From: Tenggerimyces flavus
GTDB taxonomy: Bacteria; Actinomycetota; Actinomycetes; Propionibacteriales; Actinopolymorphaceae
DNA length: 64,000 bases
Direction: 5' to 3'
Assembly: GCF_016907715.1 (NCBI RefSeq)
Contig: NZ_JAFBCM010000001.1
Location: forward strand, 806,001-870,000
Shown here: positions 35,840-53,768 of the stretch, one piece after another
Position numbering within the stretch: the first letter of the stretch is position 1
Layout of the letters: every line of letters begins with the position of its first letter
Position numbers and translations under genes: made by a program
Notes under the pieces: model-generated
Told to the model about the DNA's origin: nothing
Database searches by the model: none
The model's input: the letters and a program-made list of their open reading frames with translations, nothing else

Positions 35840-37369
35840 ATGACGGAGGACTACCTCGCCCGGATCGGCAATCTCATCCGGGACTCGCGCAAGCACCGTG
35901 GCTTGACGCAGACCCAGCTCGCCGAGGCGCTCGGCACCAGCCAGAGCGCGGTGAACCGGATCGAACGCGGGCACCAGAATCTCAGCCTGGAGATGATCGC
36001 CCGCATCGGGGCGGCCCTCGACAGCGAGATTGTCGCGCTCGGTCACACGACGCCTACGCATCTGCGCGTCGTCGGCGGCAGCCAGCTCTCCGGCGCGATC
36101 GACGTCAAGACCAGCAAGAACGCGGGCGTCGCCCTCCTCTGCGCGAGCCTGCTCAACAAGGGCCGCACCACCCTCCGCAAGGTCGCCCGCATCGAGGAGG
36201 TCAACCGGATCCTCGACGTCCTGCACAGCATCGGCGTCAAGACTCGTTGGCTGAACGAGGAGAACGACCTCGAGATCGTCCGCCCCGAGCAACTCGACCT
36301 TGACGCGCTCGATCTCGAAGCAGCGCGACGTACGCGTTCGATCATCATGTTCCTCGGCCCGTTGCTGCACGACGAGACGAGGTTCAAGCTCCCGTACGCC
36401 GGTGGCTGCGACCTCGGTACGCGCACGATCGAGCCGCACATGCACGCGCTGCGCCCGTTCGGCCTCGAGGTCAAGGCGACCGGCGGCTTCTACCACGCCG
36501 AGGTCGACCGCTCCGTCTCGCCGAAGCGCCCGATCGTGCTCATCGAGCGCAGCGACACCGGCACGGAGAACGTCCTACTCGCCGCGGCCCGCAATCCGAG
36601 CGTCACGATCATCCGGAACGCCAGCCCCAACTACATGGTGCAGGACCTCTGCGTGTTCCTGCAGAAGCTCGGCGTCCAGATCGACGGCCTCGGCACCACC
36701 ACGCTCACCGTGCAGGGCGTCGAGGAAATCTCCACCGACGTTGACTATGCGCCGTCGGAGGACCCGATCGAGGCGATGAGCCTGCTCACCGCGGCGATCG
36801 TCACCGGCTCCCAGCTCACCGTGCGGCGCGCGCCGGTCGAGTTCCTCGAGATCGAGCTCGCGATCCTCGAGGAGATGGGACTGGACTACTCGCGCAGCAA
36901 TGAGTACGTCGCCGCCAACGGCTTCACGCGACTCGTCGACCTCGAGGTCCGCCCGTCCAGGCTGCACTCGCCGATCGACAAGATCCACCCGATGCCGTTC
37001 CCGGGCCTGAACGTCGACAACATCCCGTTCTTCGCCGGCATCGCTGCGGTCGCGCACGGGTCGACGCTGATCCACGACTGGGTGTACGAGAACCGCGCGC
37101 TTCACCTTACGGAGTTGACGAAACTCGGCGCGACAGTCAAGCTCGCCGACCCGCACCGGATCTACGTCGAAGGCCCGACCCGCTGGCGCGCGGCCGAGGT
37201 GATCTGCCCGCCCGCGCTCCGTCCGGCCGTGGTGATCCTGCTCGGCATGATGGCGGCGAAGGGTACGTCGGTGCTGCGGAACGTGTACGTGATCCACCGT
37301 GGCTACGAGGAACTCGCCGAACGCCTCAACCAGCTCGGCGCGCAGATCGAGACGTTCCGCGACATCTAG
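35840..37369 (+). CDS. HTH domain fused to UDP-N-acetylglucosamine 1-carboxyvinyltransferase (MurA)
   Basis: 509 aa. Residues 1-70 are a Cro/CI helix-turn-helix (RDSRKHRGLTQTQLAEALGT, then SQSAVNRIERGHQNLSLEM). From about residue 75 it is a complete MurA/EPSP synthase-fold enzyme: TSKNAGVALL (catalytic Lys), GGCDLGTRTIEPHMHAL (active-site Cys, the fosfomycin target, retained) and PFPGLNVDNIPFFAGIA (catalytic Asp). Standard MurA is about 420 aa and has no HTH. It may sense UDP-GlcNAc or PEP and regulate genes, or be a second cell-wall enzyme. The stop overlaps the stop of the convergent GT-C gene (CTAG, 37366-37369). Confidence 0.85.
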   Translation: MTEDYLARIGNLIRDSRKHRGLTQTQLAEALGTSQSAVNRIERGHQNLSLEMIARIGAALDSEIVALGHTTPTHLRVVGGSQLSGAIDVKTSKNAGVALLCASLLNKGRTTLRKVARIEEVNRILDVLHSIGVKTRWLNEENDLEIVRPEQLDLDALDLEAARRTRSIIMFLGPLLHDETRFKLPYAGGCDLGTRTIEPHMHALRPFGLEVKATGGFYHAEVDRSVSPKRPIVLIERSDTGTENVLLAAARNPSVTIIRNASPNYMVQDLCVFLQKLGVQIDGLGTTTLTVQGVEEISTDVDYAPSEDPIEAMSLLTAAIVTGSQLTVRRAPVEFLEIELAILEEMGLDYSRSNEYVAANGFTRLVDLEVRPSRLHSPIDKIHPMPFPGLNVDNIPFFAGIAAVAHGSTLIHDWVYENRALHLTELTKLGATVKLADPHRIYVEGPTRWRAAEVICPPALRPAVVILLGMMAAKGTSVLRNVYVIHRGYEELAERLNQLGAQIETFRDI

Positions 37370-43652: not shown

Positions 43653-46600
43653 GTGTCCGAACGGGACGATCATGTCGCGCTCAGTCATGCTGAACCGATC
43701 ACCGAGGCCTTGAACGCAGGAACGCTGAGCCGGCGTGGCTTTCTCGTCATCGGCGGCGGTGGCCTGCTGGTCGCCGGCGTCCAGGCCACAGCGCCAGGTT
43801 TGCTGGGCAAGGCGTGGGCGGCCGAGACGCCGTCGCACCAGCTCGAACTCACCCGGGCCGCCGACATGCTCCGGCTGAAGTTCGACTTCTACAACCTCGT
43901 GCTCTCGACGAGCACGAACCCGCCGCAGCTGACGCGGCAGAACGCCGGCCAGGACGCGTACGTCGTGGTCACCTTCCCCTCCCAGCACGTGATGGAGGAC
44001 CCGGTCCTCGAGACCGATCCCCGGCCAGCTCCCGGCGCGGTCAAGACGGAGGCAGTGGAGAGCAGCCACCTCGGGTTCAAGGTTCCGGCGACCGTGACGT
44101 CGCTCCCCTACACCGAGAGCGCCCTGTTCGCCTGGTGGCAGTGGATCATGAACGTCGTCCCCCGGGCACTGCCAGCGGGAACGCCACCGTTCGAGCCAGG
44201 CGAGCCCACTCCGGCGTACGTCGAGCCGGATGCTCTCCAGACCGACCTTCGGCTGGTCGACTGGCTGCACCTGTCACCGGACAGCCTCACCACCTGGACC
44301 CACGCCGCGGCACCCGTCACCCACGGCGCGCGGACCGAGCTCTGGCACACGAGGCTGGTCAACCGCGACGACGAGAACCGGCCAGACGTCCTGTCCGGAC
44401 CGACCTCGCTGCGCGCTGTCTACACCGAGACGCCACCGAACGGCACCCCCTTCACGGTGTTCGGCCCGAATCACCCGAACGAGATCGTGCAGAACACCTC
44501 GGACTTCTCCGCGCCGTTCGTCAAGGAAGCGGGCACGGACCTGGTGCTCCTCAGCGCGTTGGGTTCGTCCCTCGAACTCGAGGGCACGTGGGACACGACC
44601 AAGGGCGCCACCCTGATCAAGTGGCGGCATCGGTCGTCGATCGGCCGCGACAACTACGTCCGCCTGGAGAACGCAGGCTTCTTGTTCCCGTTCGGCAACC
44701 GGGCCGTCCTCGTACGTGAGAGCCAGCGCCGGATCGAGAACGGCGTCGCGTACCTGTTCCAGAACCTGTTCATCATCGTCAAGGAGCCAGTCAAGTCCTT
44801 CCCCGACGCGGCCAACGCCGAGCCTCGACCGAACGCGTTCCCGTTCCGGCGAATTCAGCTCACCACGACCGTGACGCCGACGCTGGCCCAGAGTCCCGAG
44901 CTGATCCTGACCGGGAAACAGAGCTTCTGGGTCCAGATCGGCGACACGCCACGAGACCTCGCCTTCCCCGTCGTCGCGACCGACCTGGAGGGGCGGAAGA
45001 TCGAGTTCAGCTGCCCGCTGGCGTTCGTCTTCGCCGGCTACAGCCCGACCGATCTGAACGCGAAGTACAACCCCGCCCTCGACGAGGCGCGCGGAAGCGG
45101 ACCCGGCACGGTCCTGGCCGAGCTCTACCAGGACTACGGCAGTCTGGAGAGCTACGCCCAGCTCGCGACCGACAAACGGCGCGCGATCTCGTTGAAGGGC
45201 CAGCAGGTCGGCTTCGCCACGCCACTCCAGCCGGGCGAGTCCGCCTATCCCGTCCAGACCTTGTACCTCGGCGCCGACATCAACGAGCAGATGCCTCCCG
45301 ACGAGCGCATCAAACGGGACCTGCCGAACTTCTACCCGACAGTGCTCGCCGCGGACGTGCGGCTGCCTGCGGTGGAGGCGATCGCGGGGCCGGGCGCCAT
45401 CTCGACGATCGGGTTCGACCCCGCGTACGCGAAGGCACCGAGCACGCTCGCTGCCGGTGCTGCCGCAGCCGCTGCCGAGGTGCCGGACGTCTTCGCCCGT
45501 GTGCAGACGAACGTCGCCAAGATGGGCGAACTGCTCGAGTACGTCCAACAGCTGCCCGGCAGCACGGATCCGAACGCCACGGTCGGAGCCACCTTCAAGG
45601 CGGAGAACGTCGGCGGGATTGCCGTACCCAACCTCAACGTCGGTGCGCTCTCTCGACGGTTCGGCCCGGTCAGCGGAACGGCCGACAAGATCAGCGAGCT
45701 GCGAGATCAGGCGAAGTTCGACCCGAACGACTTCTTCACCGGAGAAGCGACGAAGTTGCTCGGCTCGATCCCGCTCAACGAGATCCTCGGGGCGGCCAAC
45801 GTCACGGACCCGAAGGGCGGCGGGCCGACGATCAAGACGACGGTCGTGTACCCGAACGGGAACACGAACCAGCTGCCCGAGGCCGTCGTCACCAAGCTCG
45901 ACTGGAACCCCGCACTCAAGAACCAGAACCAGGACGCCACCGATCCCGACAAGTTCGGGCCGTTCGAGGCGCACGGCAACGGAGTTGCCGCCGAGCTGGA
46001 GCTGCATGGCGAGTTCCGCGTCAACCTCCAGACCGGTGAACGTACGTCGAAGATCACGGGCGAACTGCGCAACTTCACCATCCACCTCGTGGATCGCAAC
46101 GACAGCTCGCTGTACTTCCTGGCCATCGTCTTCAACAAGTTCAGCTTCGAGCAGCACAACGACAGCAAGCCCAACCTGACACCCGATCTCGGGACCGTCA
46201 TGTTCAAGGGGCCGCTGAACTTCATCAACACGCTGCAGCGCTACCTGCAGACCGGCGGCTCGGGACCGAACATCGACGTTCAGCCGAGCGGCATCACCGC
46301 TGGGTACACGCTGGCCTTGCCGACCATCTCACTCGGGGTCTTCTCCCTGCAGCAGCTGAGCTTCTCCGCCGGGCTGAGCCTGCCGTTCGACGGCCGCCCG
46401 GTGAGCGCGCGGTTCGGATTCTGCAGCAGGGAACAGAAGTTCCTCGTCAGCGTGTACGTGTTCGCTGGCGGTGGGTTCTTCGCGCTCGAGCTCGGGCCGA
46501 GCGGTCTGGTGATGATGGAGGCGGCGATCGAGTTCGGCGGCAACCTGTCGCTGGACATCGTCGTCGCGAGCGGCAGCATCACCGTGATGGCCGGCATCTA

Positions 46601-46952
46601 CTTCCGGCTCGAGAACAACGACGAGATCACCCTCACCGGATACCTGCGGGCTACGGGTCGGCTCAGCGTGCTCGGCCTGATCACGATCACCGCCGAGTTC
46701 TACCTTGGCCTGACCTACAGCAACGCGGGCGGCGCCAACATCGTCGAGGGCGAAGCGTCCCTCAAGGTCTCCATCGACATCTTGTTCTTCAGCGTCTCGG
46801 TGACACTGCGGGTCCGTAAGCAGTTCGCCGGGCCGGACTCTGCCAACGGGGCAGCGGCACTCGCCGCCGCACCCGCGGCGGAGCAGCCCGAGTTCGCCGA
46901 CCTGATGACGCATTCCGACTGGACCGCTTACTGCGACTCGTTCGCCGCCTAG
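43653..46952 (+). CDS. Large Tat-exported protein, unknown family
   Basis: 1099 aa, GTG 43653 with GAGGGGGG upstream. Twin-arginine signal: TLSRRGFLVIGGGGLLVAGV (Arg27-Arg28), likely cleaved near residue 56 (GKAWA-AE). The mature part is mainly beta in the first 600 residues. Residues about 840-1060 hold long alternating hydrophobic strands rich in Gly (FAGGGFFALELGPSGLVMME, GNLSLDIVVASGSITVMAGI) that look like an extended beta-sheet or barrel. I recognise no family and see no catalytic signature. It is followed 18 bp later by a 1344-aa protein, and both are probably partners in an exported complex. Confidence 0.85.
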   Translation: MSERDDHVALSHAEPITEALNAGTLSRRGFLVIGGGGLLVAGVQATAPGLLGKAWAAETPSHQLELTRAADMLRLKFDFYNLVLSTSTNPPQLTRQNAGQDAYVVVTFPSQHVMEDPVLETDPRPAPGAVKTEAVESSHLGFKVPATVTSLPYTESALFAWWQWIMNVVPRALPAGTPPFEPGEPTPAYVEPDALQTDLRLVDWLHLSPDSLTTWTHAAAPVTHGARTELWHTRLVNRDDENRPDVLSGPTSLRAVYTETPPNGTPFTVFGPNHPNEIVQNTSDFSAPFVKEAGTDLVLLSALGSSLELEGTWDTTKGATLIKWRHRSSIGRDNYVRLENAGFLFPFGNRAVLVRESQRRIENGVAYLFQNLFIIVKEPVKSFPDAANAEPRPNAFPFRRIQLTTTVTPTLAQSPELILTGKQSFWVQIGDTPRDLAFPVVATDLEGRKIEFSCPLAFVFAGYSPTDLNAKYNPALDEARGSGPGTVLAELYQDYGSLESYAQLATDKRRAISLKGQQVGFATPLQPGESAYPVQTLYLGADINEQMPPDERIKRDLPNFYPTVLAADVRLPAVEAIAGPGAISTIGFDPAYAKAPSTLAAGAAAAAAEVPDVFARVQTNVAKMGELLEYVQQLPGSTDPNATVGATFKAENVGGIAVPNLNVGALSRRFGPVSGTADKISELRDQAKFDPNDFFTGEATKLLGSIPLNEILGAANVTDPKGGGPTIKTTVVYPNGNTNQLPEAVVTKLDWNPALKNQNQDATDPDKFGPFEAHGNGVAAELELHGEFRVNLQTGERTSKITGELRNFTIHLVDRNDSSLYFLAIVFNKFSFEQHNDSKPNLTPDLGTVMFKGPLNFINTLQRYLQTGGSGPNIDVQPSGITAGYTLALPTISLGVFSLQQLSFSAGLSLPFDGRPVSARFGFCSREQKFLVSVYVFAGGGFFALELGPSGLVMMEAAIEFGGNLSLDIVVASGSITVMAGIYFRLENNDEITLTGYLRATGRLSVLGLITITAEFYLGLTYSNAGGANIVEGEASLKVSIDILFFSVSVTLRVRKQFAGPDSANGAAALAAAPAAEQPEFADLMTHSDWTAYCDSFAA

Positions 46953-46970
46953 GAAGCCAGGAGCATCCCC

Positions 46971-49900
46971 ATGGTTTCGCAGACAGTTACGTGGACCGTC
47001 CTGCCGAACGGCGTGAAGAACGGGCGGCTCCAGCTCTCCGTGTTCGTCTCGCCGCGACTCGTCGCCGACCAGCCCGAGGACACGTTGGAGACGTTCTCCG
47101 ACTGGCATGACTGGCCGAAGAAGCCGCTCGAGTTCTACGTGACCGTCGGGGACGCCCCCGAGGTCAAGGCCACTCTCGTCGGGCCGAGCCCGCGGTCCGA
47201 CCTGTGGACGAAGCTCTTCACCAAGGACTCCCGGGTCTTCAGCAGCAACGGGGCACGCGTCGCGGCCCTGGACAAGCGGGTGATCCGCTCGGCTCCGACG
47301 AAGACCGTGAAGGACCTCGTGCGCGGCGAGTACTCCGCGCTCGCCGCATGGTGGTCGACCGATCCGCCGACGGGCTACACCTATTACCCACCGGGCTGCG
47401 GTGGCGGAACGTCGGACGGCACGGTCGAAACCAACGGTGCGAGTCCGAGTCCCAGCCCGAGTCCCAGCCCGAGTCCCAGCCCCACCGGCGGAGAGCCGCC
47501 GCGACGGCCGACCCTGCAGCTGCACCGCGTGCAGCTGACGTCCGGCGAGCGAGAGCAGATCAGCGGCGCGATCAAGCTGGTTCTGGAACGGCAGCGATGG
47601 GTCAAGGGAACCGAACCAGAGTTCGACGGCATCCACCCGGCGAAGGTGAGCTTCCTCCTCGTCGAGCAGTTCCACCGCCGCGACAAGGCCAACAACCCAC
47701 AACCACCGAACCAACCCCCACCGCCGCCGAAGGCGCTGGCTGACGAGGCGCCGCGGCTCGACTTCCACACCGCGGTCGGATCGATCGTCGAGTACCCACC
47801 GCTGCTGCGCATGTTCGGGCTCGTCCGCGACATCTCGATTCCGCTGCCCGCGGCCAGCCCGTCCGTTCTCGTCAAGGTGCGTCCGGTGTGGGACCACATC
47901 GCGAACAGCGTCGACCAGACGCCCGCCACCGAGTGCGCGATCACGAACTCGTCCTTCGTCGCGGTCGCGAGCGAGGACTCGTTCATGAAGAACGGCCTGC
48001 TCGAACTCGAGCGGCCGGAGTTCGACGTCGTCGACATCGACCCCGACGCGGCCGCCGCCAAGATCTCCGCCAGTGCGCAGACGTTGGCCAAGATCGCGTA
48101 CGACTCACGGCGGAGGACCCTCCCGCAGCCGCCGCCGGCCCTCGAGTCGCGCGGTCTCTCCTTGACCCAGACGAACAGGGCGGAGAAGCTCGACGCCCTG
48201 CTCAACAAGGCGATGTCCCTCGAGGCGAGCCTGCAGTCGAAGACCCTGGCCGAGATGGTCGTCCGAGCCGAAGACATCAACCGCGGGTTCCGCCTCGATG
48301 TCTGGGACGACGCCACGAAGGCCTGGCACAGCCTCTGCCTACGCAAGGGCGCGTACACGTTCGCTGGCATGACCGTCAACGTCGACGACGAGGGCGCGAT
48401 CATCCCGGCGCACACCGAGCAGGAGGATCAGCAGGACGCGACGATCTACCTGCACGAGTCGCTGGCACGCTGGGCGGGCTACAGCCTGGTCGCCCCGCGT
48501 CCCGGCAAGGGCACCAGCGACAGCGGAGAGCTCGTCGGCGGCGACACCGATCCCGATCCCTCGTTCGACCTGAAGGCGACCTTCAAGGCGGCACCAGGAA
48601 CGTTGCCGAAGCTCCGGTACGGACGCACCTACAAGTTCCGCGCACGCACCGCCGACCTGGCAGGCAATGGCCTCCGGCTCTCCGACGTTCCCTCCAACGC
48701 CTCCCAGGTGAGCGAGACGATCAAGTACCGCCGGTTCGAACCGGTGGATCCGCCGAGCGTGCTGTTCCGCAAGCCTCGTACCGAGGGCGAATCGCATGAA
48801 CGGTTGGTCATTCGCAGCAACCACAACCAGCCGATGGTGGCCGACAGCCAGCGCCACCTGACACCGCAACGGGTCGCCGAGCTGACCGCGGAGCAGCACG
48901 GGATGTTCGACGTCCCGAAGAGCCTGCTCAATCCCGGCGGCATGAACCGAGCCGCGTACGGGCAGATCGCCGACAGGGATCCGGGCACGTTCGCGACTCT
49001 CGGCAAACCCGACCCGCTCGGGCAGGACCAGAGGTACTACGACGCCGACCAGCTGAAGCTGCCGTACTTCCCCGACCCGCTCGCGCGCGGCGTCGCGTTC
49101 GTGGGCCTGCCCGGCCTCTCGGCGGACGCGGTCCACACCGAGGACTTCGACTACGGGTTGCTGCAGAGCTGGCCGGACGCGCGACCGTTCCGCATCCAGC
49201 TCATCGAGGGAACCGGCCAGCCACAGTTCGACCAGTTCAAGCGCGTCCTGATCGTCAAGATCCCCAAGGGGCGCAGCTTCGACGTTCGGTACAGCAGCCG
49301 GATCAACGCCTCGGACCGGGAGCTGCTCGGGCCGTGGGGCTGGCTGATGAACTGGATCGCCGACGGCAACGACCTGCCAGCAGACGTGGCCCAGGCCGAC
49401 CTGGAGGAGTGGGCGGTCAAGGGGCAGCTGTGGCAGCTCACGCCGTACCGCACGTTGACGCTCGTGCACGCCGTTCGGCAGCCGCTCCTCGCTCCGGGCT
49501 TCACCAAGCCGGTCGCGATTCGGAAGATCGGCGACACCACGGCCAAGATCGCCGACAAGGTCACCCTCGACCGAGCGAGCACCGTTCGGCTCGACCTGGT
49601 CGCGAGGTGGACCGAACAGCTCGACGTCCTCGGGGAGACAGAGCCGAAGCCGCGCAACGGCGAGGTCGTGGCGTACCAGGTGCCGATCGATCTCGACGAC
49701 GAGGCCGGCGACCTGCAGGTGCTCGACAAGACGCAGGAGTTCCACGACACCAAGTACCGCAAGGTCAGCTACGAGCTCATCGCGACCACCCGATTCGCCG
49801 AGTACTTCGTCGAGCGCAAGAACGTCGCGCTCCTCCCGCCCGGTACGGAGACTCCGGTGTCGGCCGCCGGCTTCGTCCCCGGGACGGAGGCGCTGACGTC

Positions 49901-51005
49901 CACGACCGGCACGCGCACGACGTACGCGCGCGGCGTGGACTACGACGTGAACTACGCGAAGGGAACGGTCACCGCGAAGCCTCCGCTCAAGGGCGCGACG
50001 GTCGAGGTCGCGTTCGTCGCCCCGCCGATCACACGAGTGAGCACCGAGGCCAAGCCGCGAGCCGTGGTGGACGTGCCGAGCACCGCGCGGCCGATCGCGC
50101 CGGACATCGCCTACATCGTGCCGACGTTCGGGTGGGCTCGGACGGGCAGCGGCAACCAGTTCACGAGCACCCGGTCGGGTAACGGCCTGCGCGTCTACCT
50201 CAGGCGTCCCTGGTACTCCTCCGGCGACGGTGAGCAGCTCGGCGTGATCGTTCCGCAGGCGCAGCCAGATCCGATCCAGCTCGCCCGGATCGAGCGGTAC
50301 ATCACCACCTGGGGTCAGGACCCGGCGTTCAACTCTGGCGCCGCTGATCCGCAGCTTCAGGTGTCGCCGTTGCGCACCCAGTTCCCGTTGGCGATCCGGC
50401 CCAAGTCCAACCTCAAGCTCGCCGAGTCCGACAAGGACGCCGGACTGACCGACCGGGTCGCCGTCGCGCCTCACGATGTCGGGTACGACAAGGAACGTCA
50501 GCTCTGGTACTGCGACGTCACGATCAACCGCACGGACACGGCGTACACCCCGTTCATCCGGCTGGCTCTCGCCCGCTACCAGCCGATCTCCCTCACCGGT
50601 GTCGAGCTCTCGACCGTGGTGCTGGCCCAGTTCGCCCAGCTGAGCCCGGACCGCACCATGACGGCTGTCGTCGACTCGGCGGACCCGACGAAGGTCAAGG
50701 TCACCGTGACCGGCCGGACGTACGTACCCGTCACCGGCACGACTGAGCGAGCGTCGGTCAAGGTGCTCGTCCAGACCGCCAGGACGGGGGTTCCGGGCGA
50801 TCTCGCGTGGGAGACGGCGAGCACCGTCGACCTCCCGGTCACCGCCACCGCTCCGCTCGCCACCTGGTCCGGCACGGTGACGCTTCCCGGTCCGCGCGGC
50901 AGCAAGCCGTTCCGCCTCGTGGCCGAGGAGTCCGACCAACTCGGCAAGAACCAGACCAACACCACGACCAGCCGCCTCGTCTACGTCGACGCCATCCAGA
51001 TCTGA
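46971..51005 (+). CDS. Giant protein of 1344 aa without signal, unknown family
   Basis: Starts MVSQTVTWTVLPNGVKNGRL at ATG 46971; no Sec, Tat or lipoprotein signal and no membrane helix. A Ser-Pro repeat linker (about residues 160-172) follows PPGCGGGTSDG. Residues about 545-570 (YGRTYKFRARTADLAGNGL) resemble a fibronectin-type strand. The C-terminal 350 residues are beta-rich (VKVTVTGRTYVPVTGTTERA). No enzyme motif found. It lies between two genes for exported proteins and could be carried out with the Tat partner. Third gene starts 23 bp later. Function unknown. Confidence 0.85.
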   Translation: MVSQTVTWTVLPNGVKNGRLQLSVFVSPRLVADQPEDTLETFSDWHDWPKKPLEFYVTVGDAPEVKATLVGPSPRSDLWTKLFTKDSRVFSSNGARVAALDKRVIRSAPTKTVKDLVRGEYSALAAWWSTDPPTGYTYYPPGCGGGTSDGTVETNGASPSPSPSPSPSPSPTGGEPPRRPTLQLHRVQLTSGEREQISGAIKLVLERQRWVKGTEPEFDGIHPAKVSFLLVEQFHRRDKANNPQPPNQPPPPPKALADEAPRLDFHTAVGSIVEYPPLLRMFGLVRDISIPLPAASPSVLVKVRPVWDHIANSVDQTPATECAITNSSFVAVASEDSFMKNGLLELERPEFDVVDIDPDAAAAKISASAQTLAKIAYDSRRRTLPQPPPALESRGLSLTQTNRAEKLDALLNKAMSLEASLQSKTLAEMVVRAEDINRGFRLDVWDDATKAWHSLCLRKGAYTFAGMTVNVDDEGAIIPAHTEQEDQQDATIYLHESLARWAGYSLVAPRPGKGTSDSGELVGGDTDPDPSFDLKATFKAAPGTLPKLRYGRTYKFRARTADLAGNGLRLSDVPSNASQVSETIKYRRFEPVDPPSVLFRKPRTEGESHERLVIRSNHNQPMVADSQRHLTPQRVAELTAEQHGMFDVPKSLLNPGGMNRAAYGQIADRDPGTFATLGKPDPLGQDQRYYDADQLKLPYFPDPLARGVAFVGLPGLSADAVHTEDFDYGLLQSWPDARPFRIQLIEGTGQPQFDQFKRVLIVKIPKGRSFDVRYSSRINASDRELLGPWGWLMNWIADGNDLPADVAQADLEEWAVKGQLWQLTPYRTLTLVHAVRQPLLAPGFTKPVAIRKIGDTTAKIADKVTLDRASTVRLDLVARWTEQLDVLGETEPKPRNGEVVAYQVPIDLDDEAGDLQVLDKTQEFHDTKYRKVSYELIATTRFAEYFVERKNVALLPPGTETPVSAAGFVPGTEALTSTTGTRTTYARGVDYDVNYAKGTVTAKPPLKGATVEVAFVAPPITRVSTEAKPRAVVDVPSTARPIAPDIAYIVPTFGWARTGSGNQFTSTRSGNGLRVYLRRPWYSSGDGEQLGVIVPQAQPDPIQLARIERYITTWGQDPAFNSGAADPQLQVSPLRTQFPLAIRPKSNLKLAESDKDAGLTDRVAVAPHDVGYDKERQLWYCDVTINRTDTAYTPFIRLALARYQPISLTGVELSTVVLAQFAQLSPDRTMTAVVDSADPTKVKVTVTGRTYVPVTGTTERASVKVLVQTARTGVPGDLAWETASTVDLPVTATAPLATWSGTVTLPGPRGSKPFRLVAEESDQLGKNQTNTTTSRLVYVDAIQI

Positions 51006-51028
51006 CCCCCGTCTCTCCAGGAGAAGCC

Positions 51029-52393
51029 ATGCGCCCGGCTCGTCTTCGCCGCTTCGCCGCCGTTGTCGCCGCGCTCGTCGCGACCGCGCCGTTCGCCATG
51101 ACGGTAGGCCCGGCGGCAGCCGGCGAGTCCGACCGACCCACCACGCCTGAGGAACTGAAGTCCTCCGTCATCGCTCGCGGCGCGGCTGCCAAAGCTCGCG
51201 TCGCCGGCGGCGCTTCGGTGACCGCTCTGCCACCCGGCGGCGTCGGCAACGGGATCTTCCAGTTGTACGTCGAGCAGAGCACACCCGGCAACGGCACGTT
51301 CACCGTCCTCACGGGGCCCAACCACCCAGCCGGCCCCGGACTGAACGTGCTGTTCGGCAACGGGATCCCCGGCACCAGCTACCTGATGGTGAAGCACGTC
51401 ACCGTGCCCGACGAACCGGGCGACGAGGAGTCGACGCGCGTCTACGTCCAAGGCCCTCTGATCACGCACGAGGACGAGATCTCCCTGGACGAGAGCCGCC
51501 TCGGAGTCGAACTCGGCACGACGGGCTACGAGGTGGGGTGGTCCGCCTACTTCGGGTACCTCTACGAGACGGTGGAGGTGCACGGCTCGACGCTCGCCGA
51601 CACGAGCATCGAGGTGACGACCAGGATCGAGCCCTATGAGTGGGCGCTCAACGATCGTTACCAGATCCAGCACATCTGGGACGTCGCGGCGGGCGCTGAC
51701 GACGGGCCCGTACTCCAGACCCAGCAGGCCGACACGGTCTTCCGGCCGTTCGCCGCTGTCGGCACGACCGAGCACACCCTGAACGCCTCCGAGAACCACG
51801 TCGTCGTCGCCGACAACGACGCGAACCCGGTGCCGCCGAACCTCGGCATCGCCATCTCCAGCGCCGGACCGAGCTGGCTCGATCCGACACCGACGCCGCC
51901 GGACTCGGTGAAGTACGTCTGCTGGCCGCAGGCTGTCTACGCGCCGATCGGTGAGTACGAGGTGGACGAGACGTACGACGTGAGCACGCCCGCATCGTCG
52001 TGCACGAACTCCAACAGCAAGAACGACTCCGCCGTGGTGTCCCTCTGGTCGGTGAACAACCCCGGAGGTCCGACCTCGGTCACGCAGACTCTGTTCTCCA
52101 GCCCGCGAACGCCGTATCCGACGGTGATGACCGCGACTCCGGTGCTGCTCAACCCGCCCGTCTTCACGGCGACGCTTCGGGACACCGGTGCGAACAAGCC
52201 GTTGGTCGGGCGAACGGTCTCGTTCGTTGTGGGCAACACCGTTCGGTGCTCGGCGGTAACCGACGCGACAGGTACGGCCGGGTGCGGGACGCTCGTTGAC
52301 CGGCTGGCCGCTGTGCTGGCATTGGGCTACACGGCGCGCTACGCCGGGAACGCGATCTGGGCACCCGCGTCCAAGCGCGCCGGAATTCTGTAG
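51029..52393 (+). CDS. Secreted protein with C-terminal Ig-like domain
   Basis: 454 aa, ATG 51029 with CCAGGAG upstream. Sec signal MRPARLRRFAAVVAALVATA, cleaved near GPAAA-GE (about residue 31). The middle contains aromatic beta-rich segments and a Cys pair region (KYVCWPQAV, SSCTNSNSK). Residues about 380-454 (TLRDTGANKPLVGRTVSFVV, then TGTAGCGTLVD) resemble a bacterial Ig-like domain. Third gene of the large exported cluster; perhaps the cell-surface or extracellular partner. Its TAG stop doubles as the -10 start for the next gene. Confidence 0.82.
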   Translation: MRPARLRRFAAVVAALVATAPFAMTVGPAAAGESDRPTTPEELKSSVIARGAAAKARVAGGASVTALPPGGVGNGIFQLYVEQSTPGNGTFTVLTGPNHPAGPGLNVLFGNGIPGTSYLMVKHVTVPDEPGDEESTRVYVQGPLITHEDEISLDESRLGVELGTTGYEVGWSAYFGYLYETVEVHGSTLADTSIEVTTRIEPYEWALNDRYQIQHIWDVAAGADDGPVLQTQQADTVFRPFAAVGTTEHTLNASENHVVVADNDANPVPPNLGIAISSAGPSWLDPTPTPPDSVKYVCWPQAVYAPIGEYEVDETYDVSTPASSCTNSNSKNDSAVVSLWSVNNPGGPTSVTQTLFSSPRTPYPTVMTATPVLLNPPVFTATLRDTGANKPLVGRTVSFVVGNTVRCSAVTDATGTAGCGTLVDRLAAVLALGYTARYAGNAIWAPASKRAGIL

Positions 52394-52403: not shown

Positions 52404-53438
52404 ATGCCGGGTCGAATCGCCTATCTCGCAAGGGGAAACGGCTTCGGTCACGCGGCCCGGGCGTTGCCGGTCATCGACGCACTGAACCGGCTCGATCCCG
52501 CCGTCGAAGTGCGGCTCGCGTCCGCGGGTACTGGTGCGGAGTACCTGCGGATGCGCGGTCGTGGCCATGACGATCTCGGGTTCCCGGATGAGGACGATCA
52601 CGACCAGGACGCCACCGCCAAGCTGCACGCGTACCTCGCCTCCATGCCCGAGCTGGACCTGGTGGTGTGCGACGAGCTGCTCCGGGTGCCGGCGCTGTGC
52701 GATCTGATCGGCGTTCCTTGCGTGTTCGTCAGCTGCTTCCTCGGTACGGATCCTGGCCAGGATCCACGCCAGGACATCATGCTCATGGGCGCTCGGCGAA
52801 TCGTCATCCCGGACTGGCCGGAACTGCACAGCGTTCCGCCTTTCCTCGACCAGGTGGAGTTTCTGGGCCCGATCGTGCAGCCGATCGCGATGTCGCGAGC
52901 AGCCGCCCGGCAGGAACTGGGCATCGGCGACTCGTTCGTTGGCGCTGTGTCCCTGGGCGGACTGACCGCGAATCGGCTTACGTACCAGCGAGAACTGCTG
53001 CGAACCGCGCTTGCCCTGTGGGAGCAGAACGCGCCGTCCGATGGCGCGCTCTACGTCCTCTGCGGCTCGGCGGTTGCGGCGGCCGAGCTCGGGATCCGCT
53101 CGGACGACGCACGAGTCAGGTGGATCGGGTACGAGTCGAGCCAGGATCCCGATCTCTACCTGCGCTCGGCCGACGTCGTGTTCCCCTCACCCGGCTCGGC
53201 GATGCTGAAGGTAGCCCGGAGCGGGATCCCGGCGGTCGTCCTGCGCGAGCCGAACTGGCCGGTCGGCCGGCAGCACGTTCAGCACCTCGCCGGCCGTTCG
53301 TCGGTGCACGTCGGTTGGAACGGTGACGCCTGGACGACGGTGACGGACGCAGGCGTCGCGCCCACTTCCGAAGGGCTCTGGTGGGGAGAGCCCAGCGACC
53401 TCGCGAAGGTCATCCTGGCCGAGCTTCCGCGCGGCTAG
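52404..53438 (+). CDS. GT-B glycosyltransferase (MurG-like)
   Basis: 344 aa from ATG 52404 (MPGRIAYLARGNGFGHAARA). The N-terminal Gly-rich loop GNGFGHAARALPVIDAL matches MurG/GT28 enzymes; ADVVFPSPGSAMLKVARSGI and PAVVLREPNWPVGRQH fit the donor-binding half. Cytoplasmic or peripheral. Own leaderless promoter, so it is not necessarily part of the upstream operon, though glycosylation of the exported proteins is conceivable. Its TAG stop borders repeat element B copy 3. Confidence 0.83.
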   Translation: MPGRIAYLARGNGFGHAARALPVIDALNRLDPAVEVRLASAGTGAEYLRMRGRGHDDLGFPDEDDHDQDATAKLHAYLASMPELDLVVCDELLRVPALCDLIGVPCVFVSCFLGTDPGQDPRQDIMLMGARRIVIPDWPELHSVPPFLDQVEFLGPIVQPIAMSRAAARQELGIGDSFVGAVSLGGLTANRLTYQRELLRTALALWEQNAPSDGALYVLCGSAVAAAELGIRSDDARVRWIGYESSQDPDLYLRSADVVFPSPGSAMLKVARSGIPAVVLREPNWPVGRQHVQHLAGRSSVHVGWNGDAWTTVTDAGVAPTSEGLWWGEPSDLAKVILAELPRG

Positions 53439-53768
53439 AGGTCGTGTCTGGCAAAGAGCGCCGGTCATCGCGCGTAGCGCGATGGCGCGCGCGTAGCGCG
53501 ATGGCGCGCGCGTAGCGCGATGGCGCGCGCGTAGCGCGATGGCGCGCGCGTAGCGCGATGGCGCGCGCGTAGCGCGATGGCGCGCGCGTAGCGCGATGGC
53601 GCGCGCGTAGCGCGATGGCGCGCGCGTAGCGCGATGGCGCGCGCGTAGCGCGATGGCGCGCGGCGCCCCGCGCCCGTATGGGCGTGGTGCAGGAGGAATT
53701 CATGTTGGCTATATGGGTGACGATGTGCACCGCGTCCAGACGGCCTCTGCTTACTTCTGGGGGTGTCG
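53435..53768. repeat. Dispersed intergenic element, family B, copy 3
   Basis: Starts at CTAG (stop of the glycosyltransferase), then GTGTCTGGCAAAGAGCGCC (from 53444), a 19-bp tandem repeat array, and the roughly 90-bp core shared with copy 2 (about 53690-53765 inverted). The far end inverted repeat is missing; it joins directly to element A copy 3. Confidence 0.75.
53466..53660. repeat. 19-bp tandem repeat, 10 copies
   Basis: Unit GCGCGTAGCGCGATGGCGC, ten copies in phase. Each unit can form small hairpins (CGCGC-GTA-GCGCG). Copy 1 of element B has one unit and copy 2 a degenerate one, so this array expanded here and may vary between strains. Confidence 0.9.

Follow-up and report, generated by a model that had tools for sequence, protein, structure and literature searches.

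A conserved, previously unassigned pair of genes for large proteins in Tenggerimyces flavus and other bacteria

Introduction

Membrane-spanning beta-barrels usually have an aromatic belt. In the PaoABC complex, partners that have no signal of their own are carried through the twin-arginine translocation (Tat) pathway (PMC4273604). Porin-type barrels, lipid transfer proteins, scaffolds of immunoglobulin (Ig) or fibronectin type III (FN3) domains, and PaoABC are the described systems with which we compare two adjacent genes, A and B, of the actinomycete Tenggerimyces flavus. The genes lie in a stretch of 64,000 nucleotides (NZ_JAFBCM010000001.1, positions 806,001 to 870,000, forward strand), which we call the window; all coordinates are those of the window. 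A and B are followed by a third gene, as listed here with protein lengths in amino acids (aa).

43653-46952, + strand: gene A; GTG start, 1099 aa; C-terminal W..YC.AFA motif
46971-51005, + strand: gene B; ATG start, 1344 aa, no signal peptide
51029-52393, + strand: gene 3; 454 aa with a Sec-type signal and a weak Ig-like match at the C terminus

Results

Genes A and B form a conserved module of two genes that had not been assigned before. One genome per species was scanned with profiles, which gave 54 loci, three of them on contigs that end too early and 51 usable; A and B were assigned in the contigs from stop-to-stop frames and family profiles. B comes after A on the same strand in all 51 contig loci with enough sequence. 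A class-wide search with A alone found B downstream in 16/16 intact loci, together with one degenerate copy (G544), and loci found with B alone also have A upstream. Of 66 loci, 64 have a gap of -4 to 82 bp between the two genes; one has 149 bp and one, in Amycolatopsis (L040), 2065 bp. A further A-B pair, P0004/P0005, lies at 6.65 Mb in the T. flavus genome itself; it has diverged, with ~37% identity in the best local matches.

Carriers make up ~3% of Actinomycetota (13/396 genomes in a phylum-wide search with B, 14/395 in the class-wide search with A), and A-B also occurs in scattered members of Acidobacteriota, Aminicenantota, Chloroflexota, Thermomicrobiota, Kapaibacteria, Chlorobiota and Pseudomonadota. 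Five plasmid loci from four genera (Streptomyces, Rhizobium, Diaphorobacter and, on a megaplasmid, Cupriavidus) hold A then B; where annotated, these copies are hypothetical proteins. Both genes are under purifying selection, with a ratio of nonsynonymous to synonymous substitution rates (dN/dS) of 0.09-0.40 for A and B in six close pairs. The distance matrices of A and B are strongly correlated (Mantel r = 0.965 over 43 loci; 0/2000 permutations as high), which indicates a long common history rather than contact, because shared descent explains part of the correlation.

A first-pass annotation of the window, made from the sequence alone, had proposed an undescribed system of three genes, to be given up if the genes were scattered in other genomes or matched known unrelated families. 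For A and B the proposal is borne out by constant adjacency, matched divergence, wide spread and purifying selection: the pair is neither scattered nor matched to a known family. It does not extend to the third gene. Gene 3 was found beside no other A-B pair, the paralogous one at 6.65 Mb included, and since it is not conserved next to A-B we reject a three-gene system as the general arrangement.

The same annotation had recognised no family in A or B, and this held in Pfam, NCBIfam, PHROGs and PADLOC. Searches with A and B gave nothing in Pfam at an expectation value (E) <=1, only a sub-threshold match of B to tail_tube in NCBIfam (17.6 bits; cut-off 60), and only matches at E 0.28 or weaker in PHROGs; the PADLOC models of anti-phage defence matched none of 8 proteins at E 0.01. 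To exclude the possibility that the window copy is simply odd, we also searched Pfam, at E<=1, with domains of A (51 C-terminal, 33 N-terminal) and 24 cores of B, and no family recurred in more than two members. No sequence relatives of the window A or B were found in the PDB; profile searches there were empty for B and, with A, returned just generic coiled coils that match a helical insert described below. A library of viral structures gave only phage tail proteins at low template modelling (TM) scores. Single-protein scans of a viral collection with A and B were empty, and profile scans found one contig through B and none through A; that contig holds A then B. On these scans a phage origin of the pair is not supported. 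Searches of the literature turned up no account of A-B. Judged by these comparisons, no known kind of system appears to fit the tested features, and a distant relative could yet emerge. A Pfam scan of 85 neighbour proteins found no family with more than 3 members, and thus no conserved neighbourhood beyond A-B itself. Long open frames had raised a suspicion of A-B fusion proteins; none was found in a domain scan. A common origin of A and B as one duplicated family was also rejected, with a negative profile comparison (probability 0.4%).

Re-reading of the sequence, with the GC content of codon positions, confirms the three open reading frames (ORFs) as first annotated, with their lengths and intergenic gaps of 18 bp (A/B) and 23 bp (B/gene 3). 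All three genes have a coding-type pattern, with GC fractions of 0.88-0.90 at the third and 0.47-0.53 at the second codon position, and a purine-rich, ribosome-site-like sequence precedes each start. The frame of gene 3 is open from 50807; read from the ATG at 51029, which AGGAG precedes, it codes for the 454-aa protein. The long antisense ORFs are artefacts, because their codon-position GC is the mirror image of that of the genes. The spacing suggests that gene 3 belongs to the same transcriptional unit as A and B.

The A protein has the following parts.

43728-43820, + strand: Tat-type signal; SRRGFL, hydrophobic stretch, cleavage-like site between AWA and AE
43836-45512, + strand: N-terminal beta-rich domain (residues 62-620); conserved GRDxYVR and GFLFPFGHRA motifs
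45768-45890, + strand: hinge (residues 706-746); site of a helical insert in other homologues
45990-46829, + strand: C-terminal amphipathic beta-meander (residues 780-1059); 868-1072 superposes on porin-type barrels

In the clade of the window protein a short hinge joins the N- and C-terminal domains, where most others have a helical insert of 137-271 aa; these inserts have faint apolipoprotein-like matches. The most constant part of A, in length as in sequence, is its C-terminal 330 residues. The long alternating hydrophobic region that had been noted near the C terminus is real: across 51 homologues, strands 880-1059 combine a face of L/V/A/F/I/G with a face of S/E/G/T/R/D. On the hydrophobic face, Tyr accounts for 2.0% and Trp for 0.3% of residues (family average), so that there is no Trp/Tyr belt. 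In one plasmid copy, that of Rhizobium ruizarguesonis (L096:9251-13595), A consists of two ORFs split at the hinge between the domains, which is either a natural split or a frameshift.

In the AlphaFold model of A (mean predicted local distance difference test score, pLDDT, 76; predicted TM score, pTM, 0.65), residues 868-1072 superpose with VIA-align on CymA (Z 12.8, 191 residues) and OmpG (Z 12.1), where the usual noise is Z 7-8. The superposition on FhaC covers 172 residues at 3.1 Å. The superposed sheet is barrel-like, whether closed or open. In Foldseek, MTP, apoB and vitellogenin were weakly similar to A (E 0.0017-0.11; for MTP, prob 0.51, E 0.0017, TM <0.1). We predict that the C-terminal sheet either encloses a hydrophobic ligand or is an assembly interface of a complex. 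For the N-terminal domain no known fold was found; the structure comparisons barely probed the N-terminal halves, so this is no sign of a new fold.

Two features of B can be placed on the sequence.

47445-47482, + strand: 12-bp tandem repeat; codes for a Pro-Ser linker from the N-terminal domain to the core
49470-51002, + strand: Ig/FN3-like beta-sandwich array (residues 834-1344); structure model matches

B is predicted to be a mostly beta protein with an Ig-like domain array, perhaps a stalk or scaffold. In the AlphaFold model of residues 250-1344 (mean pLDDT 84, pTM 0.67), the best single-domain match of Ig/FN3 type has a Z of 8.5 and a root-mean-square deviation of 2.8 over 100 residues, and multi-domain matches, with moderate Z values, span positions 585-1095 of the model. 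No named Ig or FN3 family was found in B with Pfam, except for Big_3_2 in 2/24 members at E 0.046 or weaker. The N-terminal half of the model is unmatched; nearly all rows of the comparison come from the Ig-like half, so this too is no sign of a new fold. In one actinobacterial metagenome-assembled genome (MAG; L053:13239-17276), B is in three pieces, through a frameshift in the gene or an assembly error.

The window A has a Tat-type signal, gene 3 a Sec-type signal and B none. A motif scan found Tat-like signals in 12/57 A proteins, 14/704 neighbour genes and 0/67 B proteins; the enrichment of A over its neighbours has a Fisher p of ~4e-8, uncorrected for relatedness. On a tree of A that excludes L031, L033 and L049, the Tat label changes four times, against a mean of 8.5 for shuffled labels, and is thus clustered but not universal. 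The signals occur in several separate groups, which include the window protein and its paralog. The N-termini of A from Rhizobium, Litoreibacter, Nitrosovibrio and Sphingopyxis showed no signal by eye or in the Tat scan. Hence, of the export signals first annotated, those of the 1099-aa and 454-aa proteins stand for the window, and export as a conserved property does not (12/57 A, 0/67 B). A cell-surface or extracellular assembly had also been proposed; this is supported by the Tat signals on A here and in some clades, but since most A and all B homologues have no signal, it is not the general rule by classical routes. Where A does have a Tat signal, B could leave the cell only with A or by another route.

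Only the C-terminal 90-150 residues of gene 3, which cover the weak Ig-like Pfam match, resemble sequences of other genomes. An Ig-domain gene also follows B in Saccharothrix (L018); a shared origin of the two was rejected, as they have no similarity. A 21-residue match between gene 3 and A is at chance level. Gene 3 would be a local accessory at most.

The gene after B varies by clade, and most loci have no co-directional third gene. A ~320-aa family follows B in one Streptomyces clade and in two other actinobacterial genomes. Three Streptomyces and one Streptoalloteichus have a protein with a Sec signal and TAGHC and DSG[AS]P motifs after B; searches of Pfam and of PDB sequences gave no match, so it can be called protease-like by motif only. 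Kapaibacteria (L030) have an RCC1 propeller gene after B (Pfam 1e-82), Chlorobiota a gene that by eye is outer-membrane-protein-like, and the remaining loci metabolic genes or no co-directional gene. Propellers also occur elsewhere in the locus: two WD40 genes, P0011 and P0012, lie between A and B in G053 (Pfam 3e-36 for P0011), the 2065-bp gap of Amycolatopsis holds an ORF that reads by eye as WD40-like, and in L024 a YNCE-like propeller is fused to A. Among the genes after A-B in several Streptomyces loci (L025:16181-18974, L026 and L028) are one that looks ATP-grasp-like and a companion gene, which may serve peptide or protein modification there.

Further features of the window lie outside the pair. 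A search of the region for RNA families found none.

52404-53438, + strand: fourth co-directional ORF; 344 aa, start 10 bp past gene 3

This ORF looks like a glycosyltransferase of nucleotide-sugar type, with only a sub-threshold match to Pfam PF13528 (E 0.021, in a longer frame). Past the cluster and ahead of the next gene, positions 53469-53662 hold a perfect tandem array of the 19-bp unit CGCGCGTAGCGCGATGGCG (10.2 copies, 100% identical). At 35840-37366 (+ strand), an EPSP-synthase/MurA-type enzyme is fused to an N-terminal Xre-type helix-turn-helix domain (Pfam PF00275, PF01381).

Discussion

What is the function of the A-B pair? We infer that the A and B proteins bind each other with fixed partners, and we tentatively favour an obligate complex that is found at the surface or outside the cell where A has a Tat signal, and that has swappable accessory modules. 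In T. flavus and the other Tat-bearing lineages, A and B would fold and assemble in the cytoplasm, and the Tat pathway would export the complex by the signal of A alone, with B as a hitchhiker. Once exported, the complex would serve in binding or adhesion, either on the cell surface or beyond it, with the Ig-like array of B as stalk or scaffold. Its target would be set by swappable modules, namely propellers fused to A, placed between A and B or encoded after B, and the varied genes after B (protease-like, Ig-like secreted) would be further accessories of this kind. In signal-less lineages, the complex would work inside the cell or leave by another route. It is unlikely, in our judgement, that the pair is all of the following: a new two-protein machine in which the large amphipathic sheet protein A and the Ig-array protein B co-assemble, horizontally spread across several phyla, exported folded by Tat in some lineages, and equipped with both interchangeable targeting propellers and third-gene payloads.

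Several points weigh against the obligate, partly exported complex. No signal is visible on A or B in Pseudomonadota, Chloroflexota, Micrococcales and most Streptomyces copies. No LPXTG motif, SLH domain or membrane anchor was noticed by eye; no systematic search was made. The correlation of the A and B distances comes in part from shared vertical inheritance, or from linked genes having been transferred together, and is no proof of binding; the monomer models of both proteins rest on 44-51 sequences. Propellers are associated with a minority of loci only. The binding of a hydrophobic ligand is deduced from a single feature, the face composition of the A sheet.

Because most lineages have no signals, an intracellular role has to be given some weight, and it is possible, if on the unlikely side, that A-B assembles in the cytosol as a particle or scaffold, which might surround lipid or some other hydrophobic cargo, and that Tat signals or propellers were added in some lineages only. 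About 45/57 A proteins and all B proteins are without a signal, the amphipathic sheet of A has almost no Trp or Tyr on its hydrophobic face, and both the weak Foldseek likeness to MTP, apoB and vitellogenin and the faint apolipoprotein-like matches of the helical inserts point the same way. However, the lipid-protein matches of A have low TM scores and are not significant as homology, Tat-like signals on A occur in several separate groups, with the window protein and its paralog among them, and secreted genes directly follow B in several clades. The barrel-like sheet of A could also be read as part of an antagonistic system, with A as a pore- or barrel-forming effector, B as its carrier or as a scaffold for receptor binding, and the genes that follow B as swapped payloads. 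The patchy spread over phyla and plasmids and the variable gene after B, including the Sec-signal TAGHC/DSG[AS]P protein of Streptomyces-group loci, are consistent with this. We nonetheless consider it improbable: no toxin or immunity gene was found, the neighbour survey showed no repeated family and PADLOC was empty, a co-directional third gene is absent from most loci, the hydrophobic face of A has no aromatic belt, and the carriers are mostly soil bacteria and MAGs.

Outer-membrane barrels account for all of the best structural matches of the C-terminal part of A (highest Z 12.8), which would suit a true outer-membrane-type beta-barrel of the host itself, with B as an extracellular or periplasmic partner. 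This is highly improbable, since A is present in Gram-positive hosts that have no outer membrane, the inspected N-termini of Pseudomonadota copies carry no signal peptide, and the hydrophobic face has only 2% Tyr and 0.3% Trp. A different reading starts from the polar residues, and would make the pair an enzyme of an unrecognised kind in which invariant polar residues of A (GRDxYVR and FGHRA) and B (GDGE, HAV and RYQP) form a joint active site. Several Arg, Asp, His, Glu and Trp positions are invariant in 44-51 diverged homologues. Pfam domain and neighbour scans found no catalytic family, cofactor motif or metabolic neighbourhood, and we regard a joint active site as quite improbable.

Since the pairing is invariant, both the binding of A to B and the location of the complex are readily testable. 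Two families of ~1000 and 1300+ residues that match nothing in four libraries would leave the annotation of bacteria with a considerable gap. Comparison of Tat-bearing with signal-less copies would show how a complex can be moved between the inside and the outside of the cell. The accessory slot, if it is a true payload position, would be a route to many linked secreted proteins.

How does A-B compare with described systems? About 12 strands of the C-terminal sheet of A superpose on the porin-type barrels CymA, OmpG and FhaC. However, identity to these is 7-12%, most A proteins are without outer-membrane targeting, the aromatic belt is missing, and A adds a large N-terminal beta domain and an obligate partner, B. 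With MTP, apoB and vitellogenin, A shares an amphipathic beta-sheet with a single continuous hydrophobic face; the Foldseek matches are weak and not significant as homology, and the alpha-helical superhelix of the lipid transfer proteins is not seen in the A model. The model of B shows Ig/FN3-like sandwiches in series, as are found in tenascin, contactin, alpha-2-macroglobulin and the phage lambda tip protein J. B differs from such multi-Ig/FN3 scaffolds in having only two faint Big_3_2 matches in Pfam, conserved motifs of its own and a strict partnership with A. In contrast to PaoABC, for which the route is described, hitchhiking of B would be an extension by analogy, and most homologous pairs have no such signal; what A-B of T. 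flavus has in common with PaoABC is a signal on one subunit and a signal-less partner encoded in the same operon (PMC4273604).

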